Virus record (IMG/VR): IMGVR_UViG_3300050016_000115
Location: 1-34,691 of that record
Length of the DNA stretch: 34,691 bases
Source of the DNA: a virus
Reading direction: 5' to 3' (one strand)
Positions 1,474-34,136 of the stretch are shown here, in pieces. The notes beneath the pieces are model-generated. The model did no database searches and was not told the DNA's origin. It saw nothing but the letters and a program-made list of their open reading frames with translations. A program made the translations under genes and the position numbers. Numbering within the stretch: position 1 is the stretch's first letter; the number at the start of each line of letters is the position of its first letter.

Positions 1474-2769
1474 ATGAACATTCTGACGAAGGCTGTATCG
1501 ATTCTAGCGCGCAGCCTCGGGATGACGGACCCAAGGCTATATCACTTTTTTTCGGGAGGTCCGACTTATGCAGGCGAGAATGTCACCGTCGACACGTCGC
1601 TGCAACTCGATGTCGTCTGGTCTTGCGTTCGATTGGTCTCCGATACGATCGCGACGTTGCCGCTTTTTGTCTACAAGCGGGATAAAGACGGCCGCGGGAT
1701 AATCGACGACACACATCCGCTTTACCGTATCCTGCACGATCGTCCGAATGCCGACATGACGGCGGTCGAATTCTGGACGGCAATGGTTTCGGCAATTCTG
1801 TTGTGGGGGAATGCCTACGCGGCGATTGAACGACTAGGAAACCGCATCGTTGCCATCACACCCCTGCGCCCGGATCGGGTGATGGTGCGCAGGCAACCCG
1901 ACGGGTCGTTGATTTACACCTATTCGTATTTGGGTTCTTCAGCGACCCTGAACGAAGATGATGTTTTTCACATCAAGGGATTTTCGCTCGATGGGATGAT
2001 CGGTATTCCTCCGATTACGCAGGCGCGGCAATCACTCGCAAGTGCAATGGCGGCGGAGAAAGCCGCCGGCGCATTCTTCCGCAACGGAATGCGTCCATCC
2101 GCGGTGATGGAGGCGCCGACTTATCTGACCGATCCGCAGCGCGAACAGGCAAGGGGAATTATTGATCGCTTCTCGGGCGCAATGAATACCGGCGGCGTAC
2201 CGCTGATGGAGGGCGGCTGGAAGCTCAACACCGGAGTTTCGCTTCCGCCTGAAGACGCGCAGCTCTTGCAAACCCGCGGCTTCCACGTCGAGCAAATGTG
2301 TCGCTGGTTCATGGTGCCGCCTCCCATGATCGGGCACATGGAAAAATCAACAGCGTGGGGCACCGGCCTCGAACAGATGCTGCTGTGGTTTTTGATGTTC
2401 TCTTTGCGCCCACACCTGGAGCGTATCGAGCAGGCCATCAGCAAGTCGCTGCTGACCACGAAAGAGCAACTTTCCTATTACGCGGAATTCAACGTCGATG
2501 GAATTTTGCGCGCCGATAGCACGATTCGCGCTGGGCTCTACAAAACCATGATTGCTTACGGCCTGGCCACCCCGAACGAAATCCGTGCGCTGGAAAATAT
2601 GCCACCCGATCCGGACGGCAATGATCTCATGATCATGTCCAATATGATGCCGCTTAAATACGCCGGCGAATTTGTGCGAGGCCGTGCACCCAAGCCACTC
2701 GATCCGAACGCCGATTTCAATCAACCAACCCCGGCTGATGCCGGCGCAGAGGGAGATGCAAATGCATAA
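1474..2769 (+). CDS. HK97-family portal protein
   Basis: Dodecameric ring at the capsid vertex through which DNA enters and to which the neck attaches. The 431-residue product has typical HK97 portal features: an N-terminal VDTSLQLDVVWSCVRLVSDTIATLPL segment, 'HPLYRILHDRPNADMTAVEFW', and a central 'FHVEQMCRWFMVPPPMIGH' followed by the clip region. Length is normal for the family. The ATG at 1474 has only a weak ribosome binding site. The gene lies between the large terminase and the prohead protease, and its end overlaps the protease start by 8 bp, suggesting translational coupling. Confidence 0.95.
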   Translation: MNILTKAVSILARSLGMTDPRLYHFFSGGPTYAGENVTVDTSLQLDVVWSCVRLVSDTIATLPLFVYKRDKDGRGIIDDTHPLYRILHDRPNADMTAVEFWTAMVSAILLWGNAYAAIERLGNRIVAITPLRPDRVMVRRQPDGSLIYTYSYLGSSATLNEDDVFHIKGFSLDGMIGIPPITQARQSLASAMAAEKAAGAFFRNGMRPSAVMEAPTYLTDPQREQARGIIDRFSGAMNTGGVPLMEGGWKLNTGVSLPPEDAQLLQTRGFHVEQMCRWFMVPPPMIGHMEKSTAWGTGLEQMLLWFLMFSLRPHLERIEQAISKSLLTTKEQLSYYAEFNVDGILRADSTIRAGLYKTMIAYGLATPNEIRALENMPPDPDGNDLMIMSNMMPLKYAGEFVRGRAPKPLDPNADFNQPTPADAGAEGDANA

Positions 2770-3751
2770 CTTTGAGATTTTCGTAGCGGCGGCCGAGCTC
2801 AAATTCGCCGGTAACGAACAGTCCGGGGAATTCGAGGGTTATGGTTCGGTGTACGATATCCTCGACTCCCACAAGGACGTGATCGTCAAGGGTGCATTCG
2901 ATGCATCACTCGCCGAACATGCGACCAAGGGCACGATGCCGGGGCTCTATGTCGAGCACAGCGCCTATACGGGCGGCGATCCGCTCCCGGTTGGTGTCTA
3001 TACCGAAATGAAATCGGACGAACACGGCCTCAAGGTCAAGGGCAAGATCAGCGCACTCGATACCGACTATGGCAGGCGCGTCTATGGGTTGATGCGCGAC
3101 GGCGCGCTCAAGGGAATGTCGATTGCCTATGCCGTGCCGCCGGGCGGCGCGCGCATGGGCAAGAAACAAGGTGAGCCACGCCGCACGCTCACGGCCATCA
3201 ATCTGCATTCCGTCGACATCGTGCGCGACCCAAGCAATAGCGCGGCGCGCATTCAGGAATTGAAAACCGCGTTTGCGCGCCATCTCAAGGACGCCGGCGG
3301 CCCCGGAGATCCTGGCGATCTCGATGAAGATACGTTTGAAGGACCGGATATTGAGGATGCCATCGAAAGTCTTGCAGCGGCGATCATCGCGCAAGACAGA
3401 ATCATGTGCGGCAATAGTGGCTGTTCGCCATACGCATATTCCGGGGTCAAGGACGCAGCGCTGCTGATGGATTCGCTACGCGATGCTTATGAAGCATTGA
3501 CCGGCGAGCGCGTGCCGGATGGTCTTATCGGCTGGACCAAAGCCGCACCAATCACACTTCGTGCGATACGAACAACCCTCGTTGATGAGTTAGGTTTGTC
3601 TCGCAAACGAGCAGATGATATCGCCAAACTTCTGTTCGGCTCGCTACCTCGCGATGAGGGAAGCACCAGGGCACCCGCGGCCGACACAAAATCCGCCCTC
3701 GATGAGATGGGCGCTGCTGTGGACGGTCTTTCATCCCTTCCCAAATTCTGA
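2762..3751 (+). CDS. Prohead maturation protease (peptidase S78-like) with C-terminal extension
   Basis: Cleaves the capsid precursor and scaffold domain during head maturation. The start at 2762 is chosen because GAGGGAG (2749-2755) lies at the right distance and the ATGCATAA overlap couples it to the portal gene; this gives 329 residues. The N-terminal ~170 residues carry the S78 layout: YVEHSA with His66, then GALKGMSIAY with Ser120. In the third motif (LHSVDIVRDPSN) the position that is Glu in HK97 (EVSLVxxPxN) reads Ser150, with Asp152 nearby. The C-terminal ~150 residues, after a GGPGDPGD linker, are an unassigned helical domain. The capsid gene starts 10 bp downstream. Confidence 0.88.
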   Translation: MHNFEIFVAAAELKFAGNEQSGEFEGYGSVYDILDSHKDVIVKGAFDASLAEHATKGTMPGLYVEHSAYTGGDPLPVGVYTEMKSDEHGLKVKGKISALDTDYGRRVYGLMRDGALKGMSIAYAVPPGGARMGKKQGEPRRTLTAINLHSVDIVRDPSNSAARIQELKTAFARHLKDAGGPGDPGDLDEDTFEGPDIEDAIESLAAAIIAQDRIMCGNSGCSPYAYSGVKDAALLMDSLRDAYEALTGERVPDGLIGWTKAAPITLRAIRTTLVDELGLSRKRADDIAKLLFGSLPRDEGSTRAPAADTKSALDEMGAAVDGLSSLPKF

Positions 3752-3761
3752 GGACAACACA

Positions 3762-5015
3762 ATGACGGAAAAGGTAAAGCTCGATCCGGAAACGGAAGCC
3801 GAGATCAAGAAGCTCGCCGCCGATCTCAAGTCGGCGATCGAAGTCGTCAAGCCCATCGCCGAAAAGGCGACGGCCGAGATAAAAGACCTCAAGAAGATGC
3901 ACACGGAGACCAAAACGGCGTGCGACGAAGGTCTCTTGAAGATGAACACGACTATCACCGAAAAGGTCGACGCGTTCATCAAGACGATGGATTCCCGCGT
4001 GGCCGAGATCGAGCAGAAGGTGGTGCGCCGCGGCGGAGATCATCCGATTCTCGATCAGAAGTCGCTCGGCGATATCATCGTCGAGAACGACCAGGTCAAG
4101 TCGCGGCTGCTCGGTGGCAACAAGAAGGGCACCGTCAACTTCGAAGTTGAAACCAAGACGATCCTCAGCGGTACCGGTTCGTGGGGGTCAACCGGTTCGG
4201 TGACGACGTCACTCGTGGTGGCCGATCGCCAGCCGGTCGTTCCGCTCCCGATGCGGCCGTTTGCCGTGCGCGATCTGATCGCGCCGGGACAGACGATCTC
4301 CAACGCCATCGAATATGCCGTGCAGGTGGCGCGCACCAACAATGCTGCGGTCGCCGCCGAAAATACGGCCAAGGCATATTCGAACTACACTTGGGATCTG
4401 CGGTCTTTCCCGGTTCGTACCATTGCGCACTTGGTCAAGGCGTCGCGGCAGATTCTCGATGATGCGCCGGCGTTGCGATCCACCATCGACGCCGAAATGC
4501 GGTACGGCCTCGACTTCGCCGAAGAGGTCGAACTGCTTAACGGCGACGGCACCGGGCAACATCTGCTCGGCATCATCCCGCAGGCCAGCGCATACAGCGC
4601 TGCGTTCGCGGTCACTGGCGAGACTGCCATCGATCGCATTCGTCTCGCGATGTTGCAGGGCGTCATTGCTCTCTTTCCGATGACCGGCACGGTCCTCAAT
4701 CCGACCGACTGGACCAAGATCGAGATGACCAAGGATGGCATGGGCCGTTACATCATCGGCGATCCGCAGGGTACGGTTACCCCGCGGTTGTGGGGTCTTC
4801 CGGTTGCGTCCAGCTTGGCGATGACGGCGGGGACGTTCCTCACCGGCGCCTTCAAGTATGGCGCTCAGATTTTCGACCGCATGGCGATCGAAATCATGAT
4901 CTCGACCGAGAATGTCGACGACTTCGAAAAGAACATGATCTCGATCCGGGCGGAAGAACGCCTGGCACTCGTGGTCAAGCGCCCGACAGCGTTCATCACC
5001 GGCACCCTGCCGTAA
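3762..5015 (+). CDS. Major capsid protein, HK97 fold
   Basis: Forms the icosahedral shell. The ATG at 3762 is preferred because GAGGA (3750-3754) precedes it and the protein then opens with MTEKVKLDPETEAEIKKL; this gives 417 residues. Residues ~1-90 are charged and predicted coiled coil, matching the delta (scaffold) domain removed by the protease encoded just upstream. The rest has HK97-family features: 'RPFAVRDLIAPGQTISNAIEYAVQ', 'VKASRQILDDAPALRSTIDAEMRYGLDFAEEVELLNGDGTGQHLLGI', and a C-terminal 'MISIRAEERLALVVKRPTAFITG'. The long antisense open frame at 4209-5126 is a shadow of this GC-rich gene. Confidence 0.95.
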   Translation: MTEKVKLDPETEAEIKKLAADLKSAIEVVKPIAEKATAEIKDLKKMHTETKTACDEGLLKMNTTITEKVDAFIKTMDSRVAEIEQKVVRRGGDHPILDQKSLGDIIVENDQVKSRLLGGNKKGTVNFEVETKTILSGTGSWGSTGSVTTSLVVADRQPVVPLPMRPFAVRDLIAPGQTISNAIEYAVQVARTNNAAVAAENTAKAYSNYTWDLRSFPVRTIAHLVKASRQILDDAPALRSTIDAEMRYGLDFAEEVELLNGDGTGQHLLGIIPQASAYSAAFAVTGETAIDRIRLAMLQGVIALFPMTGTVLNPTDWTKIEMTKDGMGRYIIGDPQGTVTPRLWGLPVASSLAMTAGTFLTGAFKYGAQIFDRMAIEIMISTENVDDFEKNMISIRAEERLALVVKRPTAFITGTLP

Positions 5016-19508: not shown

Positions 19509-22500
19509 ATGCCGTTTATTTCAGCGGCAATCGGTTTAACCGACTTAATTATAGCTATCGGGGTTGGTGCCGAGGCGGCAGCTGTCATTGGCGGAACGAT
19601 TGTCAGCGTCGTAGGGAGTGTCGCGCTTTCGTTTGGGCTAAGTTATCTCGCTAAAGCATTAGCGCCTAAGCCAGACGCGGCACCAGCCTCACTCGGCGGC
19701 GTGCAGACCGCGGTGCAGTTTGGCGCCAATCTTCCGCGCAGTGCCTTGTTCGGAACGCAGGCGACTGCGGGCGCTTTACTCTACTGGAACGCGGACGGAG
19801 CAAGTAACGACAACCTTCAGCTCGTATATGCCCTCGGGGACGGTCTGCATGACAGTCTGGCCGGCATTTTTATTAACGGATTGCCTGTCACTGTTGAAGC
19901 CTCTCCGGTCTCCTTAAGTTGGGGGTCTGGATATCCGGTCACCGAATATCGCACGGGTGGCGTCATTGGCGGCTCTCCAACAATGTTGGTGCGGTTCTTT
20001 AATGGCGCCGACAGTCAAGCAGCCGACTCAGAACTCGTCTCGCATGCCAATCCGCCAGGACGATGGAGTTCGAACAATACCCTCACCGGGATTTGCTATG
20101 TCTCGATTACGCTGCTCTATGACACCAACGTCTATTCCACCGGTGCAATTCCGCAATTCCTTTTTGTGGTCAAGGGTCTGCGCTGCTACGATGTAAGAAA
20201 GGATTCCACGGTCGGAGGTTCCGGCTCGCATCGCTGGGGCACGCAGTCAACCTACGAGTGGACAGCCAACCCGGCGATCTGTCTCTACAATTATCAGCGT
20301 GGGGTCTGGGTTAATGGCAATCTCATGCTGGGCATGGGGCTTAGCACCGCCGACATGGTGCAGAATTCTTATGTCGCGGCGGCAAATTCATGCGACGACG
20401 CTATCACGCTGGTGCTTGGTGGCGCGTCGATCAGTTCAATTAACGCCGGCGGTACCGGGCACGCGGTTGGCGACGTTCTAACGCTTACCGGGGGCACCTT
20501 TACGGTACCAATTTTGGTGCGTGTCGATACGATTGCGAGTGGTGTCATTACGCATGCGACGATCATTCAATCAGGCCACTTTACTGTTTCCGCCAGCAAT
20601 CCGGTCGCAGAAGGATCAAGCAGCGGCTTCGGCATTAGCGCCAGCTTCAATCTGACTTGGACGTCGACCGAAAATCGCTACCGCATCGGCATGCAGGTTG
20701 CCTCAAATGTGCAGCACCGCGATGCCATAACGGCGTTCCTGAGTTCAATGGCGGGGACGCTTCTGGAAGATGCCGGGATATTTGCGCCCCTGGCCGGCGT
20801 AGCGCAAACCGTCGCATTGAGTTTTACCGATAGCGATCTGGTTAATGGGCAGCCTCAAGTATATTCGTCACATCGCTCGCGCGCCGATCTGATCAATGCG
20901 GTGTTCGGTACCTATTCAGAACCAGTGCAGAACTGGGCCTCGATCTCGTCGCCGCCTCGTGTTTCATCGGCGGATGCCACGGAGGATGGCGAGGAATTAG
21001 CGACTACCATCGATTTCCCGATGGTCTATTCGGGAACGCAGGCGCAGCGGCTTGAGGAGATTACCCGCAAGCTAGCACGTTTACAGGCGACAGCAACAGT
21101 TGTTCTACCATTCAAGTTCTCGGTGCTGGAGCCGGGCGATTGGGTGACCTGGACCTCGGCGCGATTTGGTTTTACCAAGACATTTCTGATCAGCATAACG
21201 ACGCTCAATATTGACCAAACTATCGCCTTGACGTTGCGTGAGATTGCATCAAGCGCATTCGATTGGACCGCCAATACCGATGAACTCTCCGGCACAGCTC
21301 CGACCAATCTTGCTGGGTTCAATAATCTAGCTACTGCTGTTAGCGCCTTCTCGATCGCAGGCATTCAGATCAATGCCTCTGGCGGAGTAACGACACCGGC
21401 GCTGCAATGCAACTGGACAGCAATCACCGACACCACGATCAAGTCAGTCATCGTCCAGTATCGCATCGTAGGCGACACCAATGTTTTAGAGAAAAGGTTC
21501 ACCGATCCTACCACTGGTTTGGGAGTGATCAGTTCAGGCATTCAATCTGCCGCAGTCTACGAAGCTCGCGCCAATATTGAGACCATTCCATCTCGCGTGA
21601 CAATCTGGACGGCGTGGGTCAACACTGGCGCAGCGGTAGGCAACCAAGTCGTTGCGGCGGCACTGGGAGCAACTCCTCCGGTCGGAAGCGTTGGTCGACC
21701 GTCTCTCACAGACGCACTGAATACCGAGTTGAATGACGCCATCGCGTCGGTGCAGGATCAAGCTGCCCAGTTGTTTGCCACAGGCAACGATATCAGTACC
21801 GTTGCCGCGAATGCGAATGCCAATTTTGTTCTAACAAATACGAACGTGTTGGCAGCGGCGGTGGCTGCAGCTACGGCAGAAGCTGACGCGCAGACAGGCA
21901 TTGCCAATGCGTTAATTGCCAACGCCAGTATCGGTGCTCTTACTACGTCGGTTGCTACCGCACAGGCTCAGGTCAATCAGAACACCGCCAACGACTCTCT
22001 TGATCTGATTGTCTTGGCGACACTTAACGATACCTTTGCCGGATTTCAGTTTGATACGACCACACACTTCGGCACCACGGACGCCAGTGTCGCGGTAGTA
22101 GCGTCCGTAGTGACCGATGGCGTGACCGGCGTAGCGGCGCTCAACACAAACCTTGCCGCGACCAACACGAACGTCACTGCGGCTCAGACGACGGCTACGA
22201 ACGCTGGAAATACTGCAAACGCAGCAGCGGCAGCCGCAGCAGCTGTGCAGGCAGAGGCAGATGCTTCGCAGGCTAACCTGTCTCTGGATCTAGTCGCCCT
22301 GGCCACTATCACTGACGCCTTCGCCGGATTTCAGTACGACGCAACCACTCACTTCGCTTCCACCGACGCCAGCATAGCGGTCGTATCGTCTGTGGTGTCT
22401 GACGGCGTGACCGGCGTAGCAGCGCTCAATACCGCTCTTAGCGCGACCAACTCAAACGTCACGGCTGCTCAGACCGCCGCAACTAACGCCAACAACGCCG

Positions 22501-25500
22501 CCAGCACGGCGCAGGCAGCAGCCGTGGCAGCTCAAGGCACAGCCACATCGGCGAGTGCAACTGCAACGGCAGCGCAGGCCCAGGCCATCGCAGCCGCAGC
22601 CGCCGCAGCATTAGTACAAGCTGAGGCTGATGCGTCTGCAGCCAATCTAACTCTCGACTTGATCGCCTTAGCATCGGCCACCGATGCGATTGCTGGTTTT
22701 CAGTTTGACACAACGACTCACTTCGCCTCTACCGACGCCAGCCTAGCGATCGTTTCGTCTGTGGTCTCAGACGGCGTCACTGGCGTAGCTGCGCTCAACA
22801 CTGCTCTGAGTGCGACCAACACGAATGTCACGGCGGCACAAGGTACTGCCACCACAGCGCTCGGTAACGCCGCGACGGCCAACACGAATGCTGGCAATGC
22901 CGCTGCAGCCGCTGCCGTCGCACAAGCTGAAGCTGATGCATCAGCGGCCAATCTCACTCTCGACCTCATCGCACTGGCGACGATAAATGACGCTTTCTCT
23001 GGATTTCAGTTCGATACAAATACTCATTTTGCCAGCTCAGATGCCACTTTAGCCATTGTAGGAACCACGGCGACCAATAATGCTTCTGCCATAACAACGC
23101 TTACCACCAACCTCAGCGCCACCAATACGAACGTAGCCGCAGCAGAGGCCGACGCTCAGACCGGCATAACCAACGCCAACGCCGCCACCACGACCGCGAA
23201 CGCCGCCAACACGACTGCAGGAACAGCTAACACTAACGCATCAGCGGCACAGACCGCAGCGACGGCGGCACAGACAGCTGCGGCACTCGCCCAAGCCATC
23301 GCCAACGCATCAGCGGCTAATCTAAGCCTTGACTTGGTCGCTAATGCGCTGACTACCGACGCCTTCGCTGGATTTCAGTTTGATACGACCGCGCACTTTG
23401 CTACTTCAGACGCCAGTCTATTAATCGCCGGGAATACGGCGACCAGTGCCTTGGCGGCAACGGCGATACTAACTACCAACCTCAGCGCCGCAGCCTCTGC
23501 CGCTGTCGGTGGAAATGACGACCTAACAAAAATCCTTCTTCATTTTGACGGAGCAGACGGTTCGACGACGATCACCGATAGTAACGTCGGGGGCTCCTCA
23601 GCACATACCTGGACAAATCACACTGGCTCGATAGCGACAGCGCAGAGTGTGTTCGGAGGATCGTCCTACAACTGCGGGGCTGCTGCTGGGTGGGTTGACA
23701 CACCAGACAGCACTGACTTCGTGTTTGGAAGTTTAGACTTTACCGTAGATGCTCGGTTCAATAGGCAAGGCGGAGACACCACAAGCCGATGCATCGGCGG
23801 CCAGGCAGACAGCACGGCCACTTCTGCGAGCAGGTCAGTGGAGCTTTGGCTTCAGAACACTAATGTCGTCGTGGGTTATGCGTTTGTTGGCGGTACCACA
23901 TACGCCGTAACCGGAACCACGGTAATTACATCGACTGGACCAAATCACGCTGCGCTTGTTCGTTTTGGGAATATATTAAGGCTCTTCGTCAATGGCATTC
24001 AGGAAGGTGGCGACGTAGCCATCACTGGCACGGTAAACAATAGTCCTAACAATTTCGCAGTGGGGCGTCTTGGAGAATTCGTAGGGTTAAATTTCTACGG
24101 ATATATTGACGAATTCCGTGTATCAATCGGCATCGCTCGATGGACGGCAAATTTCACGCCGCCGATAACGGCCTACAACAATGCAGGCAATGATACTGCC
24201 GCAGCCGCCGCCGCTGCTGCTGCCGCCGCCGCTACCGGTATCGCCAATGCAGCGACGGCGCAAGGCACCGCCAACACTGCCAACACCAATCTTGCCACCA
24301 CCAACACGAACCTTGCTACCACCAACACCAACCTCGCAACTACTAACACCAACGTCACCAATGCGACCAACACCGCGAACGCTGCCTCTACAGCGGCCAC
24401 CGCAGCGCAGACTCAAGTCGTAGCTGTCGCTGCCAATATCGCTCTTGATCTGGCCACCTTGGCCTCGGCCACCGATGCATTGGCGGCTCTTCAGTACGAC
24501 CTAAGCGTAAACTATGGCAATCTGAGTGCTGGTGGTCAGTTTAAGATTACTGCCAGTGCCGATCCGGTCGGTGGAGCATTAGCTCTATTCGATATGCAGG
24601 TGAACGCCTCAATCGGGGCTACGTTTGCTAAAGCCGGAATACAGATCGCGGCATTCGTTGACTCACTCGGCGTTCCTTATTCTCGTGCTCGCCTCTACGG
24701 TGATCGCACCGAGATTGGGATTCCAAACGTCACGGGAGGGGCATTCTTCGCTCCATTTCTCGTACAACAAGTCAGTGGCTCCCCGCAAATTGCTCTACGT
24801 CCAGATGCGGTACCGGATGGAGCGATCAACGTGCGAATGTTGAGTAGCGGAGTGCTCGGCAATATCAGCTACGCCACTTTCACCGATGTCACAAAAACTT
24901 ATACTGCATGGAATAACGCCGCTGCCGGTGATATCATAGGAACGGTAGTATTCCCGATCTCCGCCGGCAACACATTGCTTATTGATTTTGATTTTGGCAC
25001 AAATGCGACGACGTTGACCGCCGCCGCAGCAGGTTCTTGGATCAAGATACTGGTCAATGGTTCTGTTGTTAAGACTTTCCCATTTCAGCCGCCTCTCACA
25101 GGCAACGTTCTATTTGCTTGGCAAATGCGATTTCGAGCTGTTGTGACCGGTCTGCCAGCCGGATCAACAACCGTTCAAGCTAAAATGTATATCAATGCGA
25201 CAAGTACTAACACTGTAACTTGCGTAGCGCCATCCTTTATCATACACGAACTTCCTGCACCAATCGTGACCGACGTAACCACGACGATCACACCAGCGGT
25301 TACCTATCAAACGTCGCTGGTGGGGCCATCTGGCGGAACATCTGGTCAGTTTACTGCCGCCGCACTAGGTACGTCTCCCGCTATCGGGACAGCCGATCCT
25401 AATCGCATGGTGGTTGTCTCACTTGCTTTTCAAAATACGAGTAATAATGCTCCGACGATGACTATCGGCGGCGTAGCCGCTAATATGGTCGCTTATGTTA

Positions 25501-25952
25501 GTGTCTCGCGCAATTACAGTGCATTGTTCGCGGCTCGTGTTCCGTTGGGCACTACGGCGGACATTGTTGCCAGCATAGCCGGCTCACCATCAGACATCAA
25601 TATCAACGTCTGGAAAGTGGTGGCAGCCTCGGCTACGCCAGCTTTTGCAGGTGTTGGATTTACCAGCTCCGGTCCACAAACTTCCTTTGGCATTGCGGCA
25701 GGCCCCGTGGCCAGCGGACAGGTGATGTGCGCGGCGGTCTATGGCTCTAGTGGAGCGACAAGCTATACAGGAACTTGGAGCGGTACAGATACGCCGACTG
25801 AGAACGCCGATGCTTCGACTGGCACCGCAGTTAACCTACGTTATGGCGCCTACGACATGGCGTTAACACAAACGGGCTCATTCACCCTAACACTTACTCA
25901 AGCTCTTACATCCGCCAGCGGAATATGCGGTGTTGTAGGATTCTGGCAATAA
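19509..25952 (+). CDS. Tail tip attachment and central fibre protein (gpJ-like), 2147 residues
   Basis: Likely host-recognition protein at the tail tip. Residues ~10-57 are hydrophobic and Gly-rich (IIAIGVGAEAAAVIGGTIVSVVGSVALSFGLSYLAKAL). Residues ~60-640 are gpJ / Phage-tail_3-like ('GDGLHDSLAGIFINGLPV', 'NQHRDAITAFLSSMAGTLLEDAG'-type region, 'YSGTQAQRLEEITRKLARLQATATVVLPFKFSVLEPGDWVTWTSARFGF'), with an inserted beta domain at ~299-388. Residues ~640-730 are fibronectin-like. Residues ~750-1335 hold an Ala/Thr/Asn coiled-coil shaft with five ANLxLDL...FAGFQFDTTTHF repeats. A LamG-like domain lies at ~1338-1556, then 7-residue repeats and a sixth, degenerate core at ~1645. A DUF1983-like knob region follows (~1650-1930), then a C-terminal beta domain (~1938-2147). 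Confidence 0.88.
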   Translation: MPFISAAIGLTDLIIAIGVGAEAAAVIGGTIVSVVGSVALSFGLSYLAKALAPKPDAAPASLGGVQTAVQFGANLPRSALFGTQATAGALLYWNADGASNDNLQLVYALGDGLHDSLAGIFINGLPVTVEASPVSLSWGSGYPVTEYRTGGVIGGSPTMLVRFFNGADSQAADSELVSHANPPGRWSSNNTLTGICYVSITLLYDTNVYSTGAIPQFLFVVKGLRCYDVRKDSTVGGSGSHRWGTQSTYEWTANPAICLYNYQRGVWVNGNLMLGMGLSTADMVQNSYVAAANSCDDAITLVLGGASISSINAGGTGHAVGDVLTLTGGTFTVPILVRVDTIASGVITHATIIQSGHFTVSASNPVAEGSSSGFGISASFNLTWTSTENRYRIGMQVASNVQHRDAITAFLSSMAGTLLEDAGIFAPLAGVAQTVALSFTDSDLVNGQPQVYSSHRSRADLINAVFGTYSEPVQNWASISSPPRVSSADATEDGEELATTIDFPMVYSGTQAQRLEEITRKLARLQATATVVLPFKFSVLEPGDWVTWTSARFGFTKTFLISITTLNIDQTIALTLREIASSAFDWTANTDELSGTAPTNLAGFNNLATAVSAFSIAGIQINASGGVTTPALQCNWTAITDTTIKSVIVQYRIVGDTNVLEKRFTDPTTGLGVISSGIQSAAVYEARANIETIPSRVTIWTAWVNTGAAVGNQVVAAALGATPPVGSVGRPSLTDALNTELNDAIASVQDQAAQLFATGNDISTVAANANANFVLTNTNVLAAAVAAATAEADAQTGIANALIANASIGALTTSVATAQAQVNQNTANDSLDLIVLATLNDTFAGFQFDTTTHFGTTDASVAVVASVVTDGVTGVAALNTNLAATNTNVTAAQTTATNAGNTANAAAAAAAAVQAEADASQANLSLDLVALATITDAFAGFQYDATTHFASTDASIAVVSSVVSDGVTGVAALNTALSATNSNVTAAQTAATNANNAASTAQAAAVAAQGTATSASATATAAQAQAIAAAAAAALVQAEADASAANLTLDLIALASATDAIAGFQFDTTTHFASTDASLAIVSSVVSDGVTGVAALNTALSATNTNVTAAQGTATTALGNAATANTNAGNAAAAAAVAQAEADASAANLTLDLIALATINDAFSGFQFDTNTHFASSDATLAIVGTTATNNASAITTLTTNLSATNTNVAAAEADAQTGITNANAATTTANAANTTAGTANTNASAAQTAATAAQTAAALAQAIANASAANLSLDLVANALTTDAFAGFQFDTTAHFATSDASLLIAGNTATSALAATAILTTNLSAAASAAVGGNDDLTKILLHFDGADGSTTITDSNVGGSSAHTWTNHTGSIATAQSVFGGSSYNCGAAAGWVDTPDSTDFVFGSLDFTVDARFNRQGGDTTSRCIGGQADSTATSASRSVELWLQNTNVVVGYAFVGGTTYAVTGTTVITSTGPNHAALVRFGNILRLFVNGIQEGGDVAITGTVNNSPNNFAVGRLGEFVGLNFYGYIDEFRVSIGIARWTANFTPPITAYNNAGNDTAAAAAAAAAAAATGIANAATAQGTANTANTNLATTNTNLATTNTNLATTNTNVTNATNTANAASTAATAAQTQVVAVAANIALDLATLASATDALAALQYDLSVNYGNLSAGGQFKITASADPVGGALALFDMQVNASIGATFAKAGIQIAAFVDSLGVPYSRARLYGDRTEIGIPNVTGGAFFAPFLVQQVSGSPQIALRPDAVPDGAINVRMLSSGVLGNISYATFTDVTKTYTAWNNAAAGDIIGTVVFPISAGNTLLIDFDFGTNATTLTAAAAGSWIKILVNGSVVKTFPFQPPLTGNVLFAWQMRFRAVVTGLPAGSTTVQAKMYINATSTNTVTCVAPSFIIHELPAPIVTDVTTTITPAVTYQTSLVGPSGGTSGQFTAAALGTSPAIGTADPNRMVVVSLAFQNTSNNAPTMTIGGVAANMVAYVSVSRNYSALFAARVPLGTTADIVASIAGSPSDININVWKVVAASATPAFAGVGFTSSGPQTSFGIAAGPVASGQVMCAAVYGSSGATSYTGTWSGTDTPTENADASTGTAVNLRYGAYDMALTQTGSFTLTLTQALTSASGICGVVGFWQ
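21985..24480 (+). repeat. Coiled-coil repeat array of the fibre shaft, interrupted by a LamG-like domain
   Basis: Five units share 'A(N)xxLDLxxLAxxxDAFAGFQ(F/Y)DTTTHFA(S/T)TDASLAIVSSVVSDGVTGVAALNTxLSATNTNVTAAQ', starting near 21988, 22268, 22637, 22943 and 23307. Linkers of variable length rich in Ala, Thr and Asn follow each. A sixth, shortened core (ANIALDLATLASATDALAALQYDLSVNYG) lies near 24438. The LamG-like segment (23520-24175) sits between units five and six. Units differ mostly at synonymous positions. Confidence 0.85.
24286..24360 (+). repeat. Heptapeptide tandem repeat (NLATTNT)
   Basis: About three and a half copies of a 21-bp unit encoding N-L-A-T-T-N-T in the fibre gene. The peptide is constant while third codon positions vary (aatcttgccaccacc, aaccttgctaccacc, aacctcgcaactact), so the protein repeat is maintained although the DNA has diverged. 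The 7-residue period fits a coiled coil. Confidence 0.8.
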
Positions 25953-26821: not shown

Positions 26822-27859
26822 GTGACAACACTGATCGTCGGGCAGACTTTGCCGTTGTCCTTGTCCTACAAGGATGCGAATGGCAATGTCATGTTGAAGA
26901 CTCCGGCGCCGGATACGTCTCCGGCGTGGAGTCATGCCGCGCCTACCATTACGACGCTGACGTCTACTGGGATCACTGCGGCAGCAAAGTCACTCGCTGC
27001 CGGCAGCGACACTATTGCAGCATCTCTTGCCGTTGCGGGAAAACCTTTCAGCGCAACACTTCCGCTGACAGTAACTGCAGTATCAGGACTCAAGTTCAAT
27101 TTCATCTATGACCCGAGTTGGGCGACAGCTCCGGCAGGCGCGCAGACAGCATTGAATACAGCTGCAGCAGCTCTGTCCGCTGCATTCCCCTCTAAGAATG
27201 TTACCATCAGCATTCAAGTCGGCTGGGGAGAATGTGCCCAGTCACCTTTGGGTAGCGGCGACCTCGGCTCAAGTCTAACCAATTATGATGCCTCGCAAAG
27301 TTACAGTGGGCTAAGAAGCGCCCTGATCGCCAAGAATGCTCCAGGTGCTTCCACGCTGCCGTCTGCCTCTCCACTGCCGGGCATCGTTTTCTTAGCGCAG
27401 GCCGCATCTAAGGCGCTTGGGCTTTACTCAGGCACCGTGACACCAGACGGCTGGGTCGGCTTCAGCAAGTCGGTGGCGTGGAACTTTACGACGGCGGCGG
27501 CAGCAGGATATTACTTGATAGGCACCATTGAGCACGAGATTACGGAGGTCATGGGCCGCGTGTCGATGGTCGACATGCAGCCGAATTTCTACGGCCCGAT
27601 GGATCTGTTCCGCTACTCGGCTCCTGGCGTGCGCAGTCACGCGATGGGTGCCTCCGGCAGCACCGCCTATTTCTCAGTCGACAACGGCGTCACTAACCTG
27701 GGCTCATGGAATAATAATGGAAACAACGGAGACCTCGGCGATTGGTATCCATCAGGCCCGGTGGCACACGACGCCTGCAGCGACTATAGCTCTGGAGGAG
27801 TCATCAACGCCTTCTCAGTCAACGACATCAAGCTCATGCAAGCCATAGGGTGGATGTGA
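26822..27859 (+). CDS. Ig-like domain fused to a zinc-metallopeptidase-like domain
   Basis: 345 residues from GTG 26822, 2 bases after the previous stop, so probably translated by reinitiation. Residues ~1-88 are an Ig-like domain resembling the previous gene. From ~92 on, 'GLKFNFIYDPSWATAPAGAQTALNTAAAALSAAFPSKNVTISIQVGWGE' leads to a putative zinc-binding helix 'GTIEHEITEVMGRVSMVD' (His238, Glu239). The C-terminus is 'DLFRYSAPGVRSHAMGASGSTAYFSVDNGVTNLGSWNNNGNNGDLGDWYPSG...SVNDIKLMQAIGWM'. This matches my memory of the NF038122-type metalloprotease-like proteins of Alphaproteobacteria, which have HExxEVMGR instead of HExxH. In a phage it may cut a host surface layer or polymer during entry; that is inference. 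Confidence 0.8.
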   Translation: MTTLIVGQTLPLSLSYKDANGNVMLKTPAPDTSPAWSHAAPTITTLTSTGITAAAKSLAAGSDTIAASLAVAGKPFSATLPLTVTAVSGLKFNFIYDPSWATAPAGAQTALNTAAAALSAAFPSKNVTISIQVGWGECAQSPLGSGDLGSSLTNYDASQSYSGLRSALIAKNAPGASTLPSASPLPGIVFLAQAASKALGLYSGTVTPDGWVGFSKSVAWNFTTAAAAGYYLIGTIEHEITEVMGRVSMVDMQPNFYGPMDLFRYSAPGVRSHAMGASGSTAYFSVDNGVTNLGSWNNNGNNGDLGDWYPSGPVAHDACSDYSSGGVINAFSVNDIKLMQAIGWM

Positions 27860-28761
27860 TGACCTCACTGATGGAAGAAAATAAGGTGGACAAGAACGAA
27901 CTTGCGAAGATGATGCAAGAAAAGAGTCAACTTATTAAAGATAGGTTGACAAACTCGGCATCGGCATCGGCATCGCCTCCCGTCATGACCATCACCGCTG
28001 AAATCGGCACCTCGACTATCGGCTTTGGCGCGACCGGCCAGATTGTCAAGGACATCCAGCAGGCGCTATTCGATCGTGGCTTTCGGATGACGATCGACGG
28101 CTATTTTGGTCCTGGCACACAAGCCGTCGTCGAGCGGTTTCAAACGCAGCACGGTTTGACGGTCGATGGCACCGTCGGGCCGCTAACCGCAGCGCTGCTT
28201 GATGCACCGGCCACCCAGGTTGTCGCAGCCGCCAAGCCGGCGATCGTGCCGATGGTACCGCTTGTGCCGGCCTCGGGCTGGCCGCATGACGATACCGCCT
28301 CGCTCCTGGCGTTCTACGGCAAGCCCTGGGAAGACGCTTCGCTACTGACGTCGATCGCGCCGCCATTCGCGATGACCTATAAAGAGGACAGCGGCGTTCT
28401 CGTTTCGATCAAGAGCATCCGCATCCACAAGAAATGTGCTGCCGCACTTTCGGCTGTGCTCGCGACCTGCTGGGAGTTCTACGGTCACGACCAGACGGCG
28501 ATCAACGCAACGTCGATCGTGCATTTCAGCGGCAGCTTCAACCCGCGCCCGATTGCCGGTTCATCGCGCATCTCCGATCACAGCTTCGGCGCGGCCGTCG
28601 ATTTCGACGCGGAACATAACTCGTTCTACTTCCCGCCGGCGGCGCCACACTTCACGATGTCTACCGACATCGCATGGATCTTCAAAAAGAACGGCGCGTT
28701 CTGGGGTAACGAATTTAAGCAACGTCGCGATCCAATGCATTTTCAATGGGCACACGAGTAG
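27859..28761 (+). CDS. Endolysin: peptidoglycan-binding domain plus M15 (VanY/L-Ala-D-Glu type) peptidase
   Basis: 300 residues; ATG 27859 overlaps the previous stop (TGATG). A helical start is followed by a PG_binding_1 domain at ~50-115 ('GATGQIVKDIQQALFDRGFRMTIDGYFGPGTQAVVERFQTQHGLTVDGTVGPLTAALL'), a Pro/Val/Ala linker, and an M15_4-like peptidase domain at ~150-300. Zinc ligands are recognisable in 'SDHSFGAAVDFD' (His241, Asp248) and 'RRDPMHFQW' (His294). It cuts cell-wall peptides at lysis. There is no signal peptide, so it needs the holin downstream. Its last ten codons are duplicated at 29316-29345 beyond an HNH gene, which overlaps the gene end on the opposite strand. Confidence 0.9.
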   Translation: MTSLMEENKVDKNELAKMMQEKSQLIKDRLTNSASASASPPVMTITAEIGTSTIGFGATGQIVKDIQQALFDRGFRMTIDGYFGPGTQAVVERFQTQHGLTVDGTVGPLTAALLDAPATQVVAAAKPAIVPMVPLVPASGWPHDDTASLLAFYGKPWEDASLLTSIAPPFAMTYKEDSGVLVSIKSIRIHKKCAAALSAVLATCWEFYGHDQTAINATSIVHFSGSFNPRPIAGSSRISDHSFGAAVDFDAEHNSFYFPPAAPHFTMSTDIAWIFKKNGAFWGNEFKQRRDPMHFQWAHE

Positions 28762-29293
28762 CTTTAATTGTTCGGATAACGTCGCTGATGATAATCATTT
28801 CCTCATGAGAGAAGCGATTGCCGCGCGTACAATTGCAATCCCAGCATGAAGGAACGACGTTGTTTTTCGTGTGGCCCTTCGAGTTGTCGATCCGATCTCC
28901 ACCCGATCGTTTGGATGCATCGCCGCAATAGAAACATGGTTTGCTCTCGATGTTATCTCTAAACCATGCGGCGGTGAGATCGTTGGACAATCCTCGCTTC
29001 TTATCGAAATAACGATATGAACCAACTTTGAAAACAGACCACCCTCGTCCATTGTGATAACGCTTCTGTCTTTTTTGATGTGAGGCTCTAAGTTCCGGCG
29101 TTAACTTTCGATAGTTTGATGGTCGGGGTGGTCGCCGCTTATGAGCAGCGCGTTCACATTCTCTGCATTGGTAACCCAAACCGCTCGGCTGCCTATTTTT
29201 GTCGCGCGGAAAGAATTCAGCCGTGAGAGAAAATTCGCGGTCGCAGTCGTTGCAAAAACGAAATCCAGACCGGTTCTTATGCTTTTTTCTCAT
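28715..29293 (-). CDS. HNH homing-type endonuclease inserted at the endolysin 3' end
   Basis: 192 residues, the only minus-strand gene in the late region. Two zinc knuckles (FCNDCDREF ... YQCRECE) near the N-terminus are followed by a basic region and an HNH-type nuclease: 'CFYCGDASKRSGGDRIDNSKGHTKNNVVPSCWDCNCTRG', with GGDRIDN and NNVVPSCWDCN as active-site and zinc-binding blocks. Base composition is clearly more AT-rich than its neighbours (24 of 60 bases G+C in 28981-29040), and codon use differs. The last ~15 residues are encoded by the antisense of the endolysin end. Such genes spread by cutting alleles lacking them. No self-splicing intron is apparent. Confidence 0.9.
   Translation of the reverse strand: MRKKHKNRSGFRFCNDCDREFSLTAEFFPRDKNRQPSGLGYQCRECERAAHKRRPPRPSNYRKLTPELRASHQKRQKRYHNGRGWSVFKVGSYRYFDKKRGLSNDLTAAWFRDNIESKPCFYCGDASKRSGGDRIDNSKGHTKNNVVPSCWDCNCTRGNRFSHEEMIIISDVIRTIKATRVPIENALDRDVA
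28732..28761 (+). repeat. Copy 1 of the endolysin C-terminal codons (in use)
   Basis: Encodes P-M-H-F-Q-W-A-H-E-stop(TAG) in frame with the endolysin, including zinc ligand His294. Codons cca, ttt, caa, gca and tag contrast with cct, ttc, cag, gcg and taa in copy 2. Confidence 0.92.
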
Positions 29294-29315
29294 GAGATAT
29301 GTATAGCGCTTTTTG
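28732..29315 (-). mobile_element. HNH homing-type insertion restoring the endolysin C-terminus
   Basis: 584 bp inferred as inserted DNA. It begins with a recoded copy of the last ten endolysin codons (28732-28761) and ends just before the second copy (29316-29345). The two copies encode the same PMHFQWAHE-stop and differ in 5 of 30 bases, all at third positions. The downstream copy uses G/C-ending codons like the rest of the phage and is taken as the original end; the upstream copy came with the insert. Confidence 0.7.
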
Positions 29316-29345
29316 CCTATGCATTTCCAGTGGGCGCACGAGTAA
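29316..29345 (+). pseudogene. Copy 2: orphaned original 3' end of the endolysin gene
   Basis: Reads cct-atg-cat-ttc-cag-tgg-gcg-cac-gag-taa = PMHFQWAHE-stop, identical in protein to the endolysin end 584 bp upstream. It has no upstream open frame of its own, because stops precede it within the HNH promoter region. It is best explained as the displaced original gene end. Confidence 0.8.
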
Positions 29346-29412
29346 TTTTTCTATTTTGAATTCTACGCCGGGCCGGGCGCGTCAACCGAAGACGGTAACG
29401 AGGAAGTAATCG

Positions 29413-29958
29413 ATGGCAGACGTCGACAATACGGCTGCACGCGCCAAGAGTACGATCAGAAGCTCGATCGCAAACGTGAACGCAAAGATCGTGCTGGCAT
29501 TCTTCCTCACCGTCATCGCGGCGGCTCTGGTGGTCGGTTTGCTGCTTATCCTGGTCTATGGGCCGCCCGGCAAGCTCGACGCCGGCACGATCGCGCTGGT
29601 CGCCAGCATGGTCATGCTCTTCATCAAGATGGCGGCCGACGCCAACGGCTATCAGTTTAATTCGAGCTCGGGCTCGGACAAGAAAGACGATACGCAGGCG
29701 ACCGTCTCCAAGGCGCTCGCCGATAAGGTGCCGACGCCTCCCGCCTCGCCTATCGCGCCAACGCCGACGGTGCCGTGGTGGCCCAAATTTAGCGACGACG
29801 AGAAGAACGCAATCACCGCCGCCGGTAAAACCGACCCGCGCGTCGCTGCGTTCATCGCCGCGGCGATGACCGGCGCCGCCAACGGCGACGATCTCGTGCA
29901 TCTCGTGCAAAACAATCTGCTGACGCCTGCGCGCGCCATGATTATTTCTGCGACCTAA
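29413..29958 (+). CDS. Holin-like membrane protein with long C-terminal tail
   Basis: 181 residues. Two predicted membrane helices lie at ~26-50 (IVLAFFLTVIAAALVVGLLLILVYG) and ~57-75 (AGTIALVASMVMLFIKMAA), separated by a short PPGKLD turn. A hydrophilic, Pro-rich tail of about 100 residues follows, ending 'DDLVHLVQNNLLTPARAMIISAT'. Two helices and the position directly after the endolysin suggest a class II-type holin that lets the signal-less endolysin reach the wall. The tail is longer than usual, so an antiholin or other membrane role is possible. GAGGAA lies 9 bases before the ATG. Confidence 0.7.
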   Translation: MADVDNTAARAKSTIRSSIANVNAKIVLAFFLTVIAAALVVGLLLILVYGPPGKLDAGTIALVASMVMLFIKMAADANGYQFNSSSGSDKKDDTQATVSKALADKVPTPPASPIAPTPTVPWWPKFSDDEKNAITAAGKTDPRVAAFIAAAMTGAANGDDLVHLVQNNLLTPARAMIISAT

Positions 29959-33680: not shown

Positions 33681-34136
33681 TCACGCGCTCTTGCGGGCTT
33701 GTCGGCCGGAACGCGGCTCACCAACCTGTTGCTGAATTCCGCCGAAACCGATCAATCGCTCGCGCGCGGCCATTGCAAGAAAACCGGATCGCGTTTCACC
33801 GACCGTGCTCGCTGCGGCGTCAATGCGCTCCAGAAGCCCTTCGTCGAAGGTTACGTTAACGCGCGCGGCCTTGGTCGGTGGAGAATACGGCACATAAGCG
33901 ATCGCCGCGCCTTTGGCGTCTTCAATGAAAGAGGGATCGTCCTTCAACTGGCTCAACGTGCGTGCTTCTGGAACCACGCCGTCCTCCGCTAGTCCCTCGA
34001 CGTGAAACGCCAGCGCCTCGGCAGCCTTGGCAATAGCTTCATCGATCGAGCGGCCAACTGTCGTCGCACCGGGAAAATCCGGGAACGAAACGCCGAACGC
34101 GCCATTTTCTTCGTGGATCAATGCGATGGCCTGCAT
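33681..34136 (-). CDS. hicB: HicB-family antitoxin
   Basis: 151 residues. The N-terminal half is the HicB partial RNase H fold ('IALIHEENGAFGVSFPDFPGATTVGRSIDEAIAKAAEALAFHVEGLAEDGVVPEARTLSQL'), which masks HicA. The C-terminal part 'ARVNVTFDEGLLERIDAAASTVGETRSGFLAMAARERL' is a ribbon-helix-helix DNA-binding domain for autoregulation. It ends in a short basic tail. It lies 14 bp downstream of hicA on the minus strand and converges on the tmRNA. Length and domain order are normal for long-form HicB. Confidence 0.95.
   Translation of the reverse strand: MQAIALIHEENGAFGVSFPDFPGATTVGRSIDEAIAKAAEALAFHVEGLAEDGVVPEARTLSQLKDDPSFIEDAKGAAIAYVPYSPPTKAARVNVTFDEGLLERIDAAASTVGETRSGFLAMAARERLIGFGGIQQQVGEPRSGRQARKSA

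Follow-up and report, generated by a model that had tools for sequence, protein, structure and literature searches.

Two versions of an endolysin gene end flank a homing endonuclease gene in a phage contig, with parallel arrangements in other phages

How can an endonuclease gene occupy the last codons of a conserved phage gene, and why is the end of that gene then encountered on both sides of the intruder? The question is raised by the window, which is the whole stretch of DNA analyzed here, a 34,691 nt metagenomic virus contig (IMG/VR record IMGVR_UViG_3300050016_000115). At its endolysin locus the following features are found:

27850-28761, plus strand: M15 endolysin gene (PG_binding_1 and Peptidase_M15_4 in Pfam), its final codons being the probable replacement tail
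28732-28761, plus strand: copy 1, the in-frame tail PMHFQWAHE-stop (probable replacement)
28715-29293, minus strand: gene of a free-standing homing endonuclease of the HNH, endonuclease VII-like type (phrog_1035, E 7.5e-21; alignment; phage relatives)
29294-29315, no strand: 22-nt spacer (HNH leader) separating the start codon of HNH from the orphan tail
29316-29345, plus strand: copy 2, the orphan tail PMHFQWAHE-stop (probably native), joined to no gene
29346-29412, no strand: intergenic DNA, probably native, that would have lain 3′ of the endolysin before insertion
29413-29958, plus strand: next phage gene, a small membrane-like protein without family match

An earlier note on this DNA had reported 30-base copies at 28732-28761 and 29316-29345, both encoding PMHFQWAHE-stop and differing at five third positions, and this is exactly what is found. 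The endolysin 3′ end reads GAT CCA ATG CAT TTT CAA TGG GCA CAC GAG TAG and copy 2, 584 bases away, reads CCT ATG CAT TTC CAG TGG GCG CAC GAG TAA; all five differences are synonymous third-position changes (P = 0.0018 by counting), and the flank-to-flank repeat score is 19, whereas shuffled sequences reach at most 11. Equal in length and exact in register, the copies resemble a 30-bp target-site duplication generated at insertion and followed by drift, but copy 2 would have been free to drift and all five differences are nonetheless synonymous: under a duplication-then-drift model with copy 1 constrained, copy 2 free and five differences, the same peptide is obtained in 0.015% of simulations (P = 0.00015). 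Both copies were therefore coding sequence when they diverged, either in two different endolysin genes or through the recoding of one. Simulation thus rejects the duplication with drift, which is rendered very improbable also by parallel loci described below, where the tails differ in amino acids like homologues (L010 and L283) or are recoded in four of four codons (L262). Less probable still is the joining of two alleles by assembly error or strain mixture, a reading suggested by the record being a metagenomic virus contig and opposed by the position of the HNH gene between the copies and by the recurrence of the layout in unrelated contigs from different samples.

A profile built from the endolysin together with two relatives matched the Listeria L-alanyl-D-glutamate peptidase 2vo9, and in the profile alignment the His of PMHF falls in the last, C-terminal zinc-ligand region of that structure. 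In M15 enzymes the zinc-ligand role of the C-terminal His is established, and the duplicated stretch therefore includes a catalytic residue, in agreement with the original proposal that the tail covers zinc ligand His294. The endolysin has an alternative ATG start at 27859, and its start is overlapped by a gene (26822-27859) with a metalloprotease-like HEITEVMGR motif and without Pfam or PHROG match. Elsewhere in the window, the product of 33681-34136 (minus strand) resembles, on a reading of its sequence, a HicB-type antitoxin, and 19509-25952 encodes a tail-fibre-like protein of great length in which several blocks are repeated (AGFQFDTTTHFASTDAS...).

Uninterrupted relatives show the copy-1 peptide to be the usual ending of this enzyme: L001 ends DPMHFQLAHE-stop, L130 (= L124) DPMHFQWAHE-stop, and L128, L134, L136 and L138 end DPMHFQ[SF]AHE-stop. 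In these six loci, all outside the window's own lineage, the stop codon leads straight into intergenic DNA or a following gene, without a second tail. The comparison with HNH-less loci that had been proposed therefore bears out the single tail in relatives, while a locus of the window's own lineage joining 28731 to 29316 was not found: DNA searches in phages returned no uninterrupted close relative, the capsid relatives L031-L035 lack a window-type endolysin or their contigs stop before it, no relatives of the next gene (29413-29958) were detected in viral contigs, and 398 genomes of the phylum of L029 yielded only distant M15 enzymes, apart from L029 itself. L126, retrieved by a pattern scan, was discarded as a chance match.

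Which of the two copies is native was originally argued from the G/C-ending codons of copy 2. This is a weak argument, since the codon usage of the phage favours copy 2 by a margin of only 1.8 bits; the G+C content is 0.47 in the insert and 0.57 in the phage. We infer nonetheless that copy 2 is native and copy 1 the replacement, because copy 2 adjoins the native intergenic DNA and the next gene, and because parallel loci agree. The left limit of the donor DNA that copy 1 would represent is not visible and possibly lies further upstream.

Between the copies, an HNH insertion at the endolysin end is present as the earlier note had proposed, with the correction that its gene lies on the minus strand (28715-29293). 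The 3′ end of this gene, whose product has 192 residues, is antisense to the last 16 endolysin codons; homology to other nucleases runs as far as about 28754, where the endolysin has its stop, and the 12 residues beyond this point come from read-through on the strand opposite the endolysin tail. The alignment contains conserved C..C, DRIDN, N and C..CN columns, with the catalytic and zinc motifs of HNH/EndoVII present. In enterobacterial phages, relatives of the window HNH occupy varied sites, beside DNA polymerase, terminase/portal and tail genes, and no close relative was found at other endolysins. An intron or intein had been excluded from the outset, and rightly so: the endolysin gene is whole 5′ of the insert, where it has a stop codon of its own, and splicing would have no gene to restore.

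The principal parallel, and the one in which the empty site is available, is L019. Its M15 endolysin ends GAG TTC GTT AGT AGG TAA (EFVSR-stop), and two bases past that stop begins an HNH_3 endonuclease gene (3465-3872) with the last codons ATT GTT TCC CGA TAA (IVSR-stop). From TTGTTTCCCGATAA onward, L019 is identical over 84 nt to L028, which has no endonuclease and whose endolysin ends GAA TTT GTT TCC CGA TAA. The endonuclease thus sits within the last codons of the endolysin, and for this pair the downstream tail is the one carried by an uninterrupted close relative. The native tail has been left behind HNH_3, of which it now forms the C-terminus, and the endolysin carries a recoded tail. 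The AGT AG[AG] spelling of the L019 tail is that of L012 and L016, and L012 bears at the same place an HNH 61% identical to that of L019, as expected if an L012-like phage was the donor. Among 70 HNH_3 loci, the five nearest L019 all lie at M15 3′ ends (5/5, against 0/65 of the other loci), which points to a clade with a fixed site.

Further parallels involve two other genes and another M15 endolysin. In L283 (and L280), a RuvC-like resolvase ending WYGATR-stop is followed by an HNH_3 gene ending SSWYGATQ-stop, with WYGATQ-stop as the orphan, and the related L287 ends YWGAMK-stop without insert. In L262, a 559-residue structural gene ends VRGDR-stop (AGG GGC GAC AGA TGA) and the HNH_3 behind it ends LRGDR-stop (CGA GGG GAT CGT TGA), RGDR being respelled in four of four codons. 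The M15 endolysin of L010 ends HFQIAREG-stop, where LAHE-stop is usual, and is followed by an antisense ORF (3444-4070); an orphan CTA GCA CAC GAA TAA (LAHE-stop) stands alone at 4108-4122, directly before the next gene. With uniform bases, an exact LAHE-stop would arise by chance in the 66-nt gap of L010 about once in 70,000, and in the uninterrupted loci L185 and L155 a next gene of the same kind comes directly after the endolysin stop. The start of the L010 ORF resembles GIY-YIG nucleases, and from the motif TIY...KVGCT...R we tentatively read it as one; the family libraries searched do not recognize it, and its fold model has a pLDDT of 35. Two versions of a 3′ end flanking an endonuclease or endonuclease-like ORF, the in-frame one upstream, are hence found in the window and alike in L019, L283, L262 and L010.

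A stop-anchored comparison was made of 91 gene-end/endonuclease pairs, with 300 permutations of pairs as control. Four scores of at least 20 were obtained (the window, L283, L262 and L210), compared to a mean of 0.2 and a maximum of 2 such scores in permuted pairs; one of the four is the window, the source of the hypothesis. L210 (QMLRA / QMLKA, score 20) was discounted, its second tail lying inside a 22-residue ORF. No orphan tail was detected at segA, segF, mobA, mobB and mobC of T4, nor beside eight enterobacterial-phage relatives of the window HNH, so that the feature is recurrent and not general to homing endonuclease genes.

Several loci show related configurations. Endonuclease genes, HNH_3 and HNH-AP2-like, stand directly behind the stop of an M15 endolysin, with no clear orphan tail, in L012 (1364-1771), L204-L206 and L208/L209 (2456-2875); in L204-L206 only AAATGA is repeated at both junctions, and the L208 endolysin ends EAVS-stop, missing the usual final Arg. 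A mirror case is seen in L237, where a ATGACCTCCCCC start is present at both the HNH start and the start of the next gene (2455-2479 and 2982-3006), as though the intruding endonuclease gene had taken its 5′ end from the gene that it invaded. In L278 (about 2480-3060), the RuvC-like gene known from L283 is again followed by an HNH_3, which here is joined to the final part of the gene that comes next (PGHGDQWHFG), with a deletion adjoining the endonuclease.

The architecture itself is well supported: two tails with the HNH between them, a complete endolysin frame, an orphan second tail, and a layout shared with other phages. Our preferred explanation, to which we assign a probability of about 0.75, is that a free-standing homing endonuclease gene was inserted in the last endolysin codons and that this event also provided an entire 3′ end with synonymous differences. 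The entry of an endonuclease, the synonymous replacement and the orphaning of the native tail, all put forward in the earlier note, gain support from independent parallels, chiefly L019 with L028. Ordinary illegitimate recombination or mosaic exchange, in which the endolysin tails of two phages came to overlap and cutting and recoding had no role, is an unlikely though not negligible rival. Phage mosaicism is common at gene ends, the tails differ as those of different phages would, and in a breakpoint scan the endolysins of L019 and L028 differ along their whole length, without a visible breakpoint; yet the DNA between the tails consists in each case almost entirely of a gene for an endonuclease or an endonuclease-like protein, one gene end is repeatedly occupied by different nuclease families, and one clade of HNH_3 is bound to M15 ends.

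For the insertion with tail replacement, we infer a path of cutting, invasion and repair, joining, and protection by recoding. The nuclease of a co-infecting phage bearing the element would cleave the uninterrupted gene immediately 5′ of the PMHF codons, and the left broken end would invade the donor endolysin, which has the endonuclease gene behind its tail, in a one-sided homologous repair. Repair synthesis would copy the donor tail and then the endonuclease gene, and the far end of the copied DNA would be connected to the right-hand end of the break through little homology or none at all. The predicted outcome, with its junction at the cut, is donor tail, endonuclease and native orphan tail, which is the layout observed. 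The synonymous differences may protect the repaired gene from re-cutting; the spelling of the tail may have been selected to that effect or may simply be the donor's own.

A broader and more tentative reading, to which we lend somewhat less than even credence, is that phages carry recurrent natural cleave-and-rescue elements, drawn from several homing endonuclease families, in which recoded 3′ ends have been selected for immunity of the rescued gene and the targets are catalytic or translation-coupled 3′ ends of conserved genes. The window insert would then be a natural counterpart of the engineered cleave-and-rescue element, its recoded tail possibly sparing the rescued gene. To our knowledge, a tail-replacing endonuclease insertion could previously be named only from fungal mitochondria; our search for a description of replaced gene ends in phages returned none, which, being confined to open-licence papers, is weak evidence. 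Judging from the loci compared, the same arrangement appears to occur in at least three other phage loci. It would explain how a homing endonuclease gene with neither intron nor intein can target the most conserved catalytic codons without killing its host, it would bring a fungal-mitochondrial mechanism into phages, where mixed infection allows testing, and orphan gene ends behind endonuclease genes would provide a simple genomic signature for homing sites.

For phages, free-standing endonucleases that adjoin or overlap conserved genes are known from reviews and genome studies (PMC2988022, PMC10448857, PMC12724721). The T4 Seg/Mob genes, known from intronless homing, resemble the window in that a free-standing homing endonuclease gene adjoins a conserved gene, often overlapping its end, with segC, segF, mobA and mobC overlapping upstream ORFs by 11-24 bp; they differ in that neither duplication nor replacement of a gene end is described in the excerpts of PMC2988022. 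The window HNH shares its Cys-Cys zinc site and DRIDN...N motif with the endonuclease VII-like homing endonucleases (phrog_1035; F-CphI, PMC6083498, may be compared), whose enterobacterial-phage representatives adjoin polymerase, terminase or tail genes and show no duplicated gene end. Among described elements, the nearest to the window insert are the mobile ORFs (mORFs) of fungal mitochondria that carry a replacement C-terminus, reported from atp6 of Allomyces macrogynus, from atp6, atp9, cox2 and nad3 of Glomus sp., from atp9 of Rhizopus and from cox2 of Mortierella (PMC3630166). As in the window, an endonuclease gene lies near the 3′ end of a conserved gene, a foreign in-frame tail stands upstream and the native orphan downstream, the differences between the tails are largely synonymous, and neither intron nor intein is involved. 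The mitochondrial mORFs are LAGLIDADG or GIY-YIG genes in sense orientation, sometimes fused in frame, whereas the window presents a phage locus with an endonuclease VII-like HNH in antisense and a 10-codon tail on a catalytic zinc ligand.
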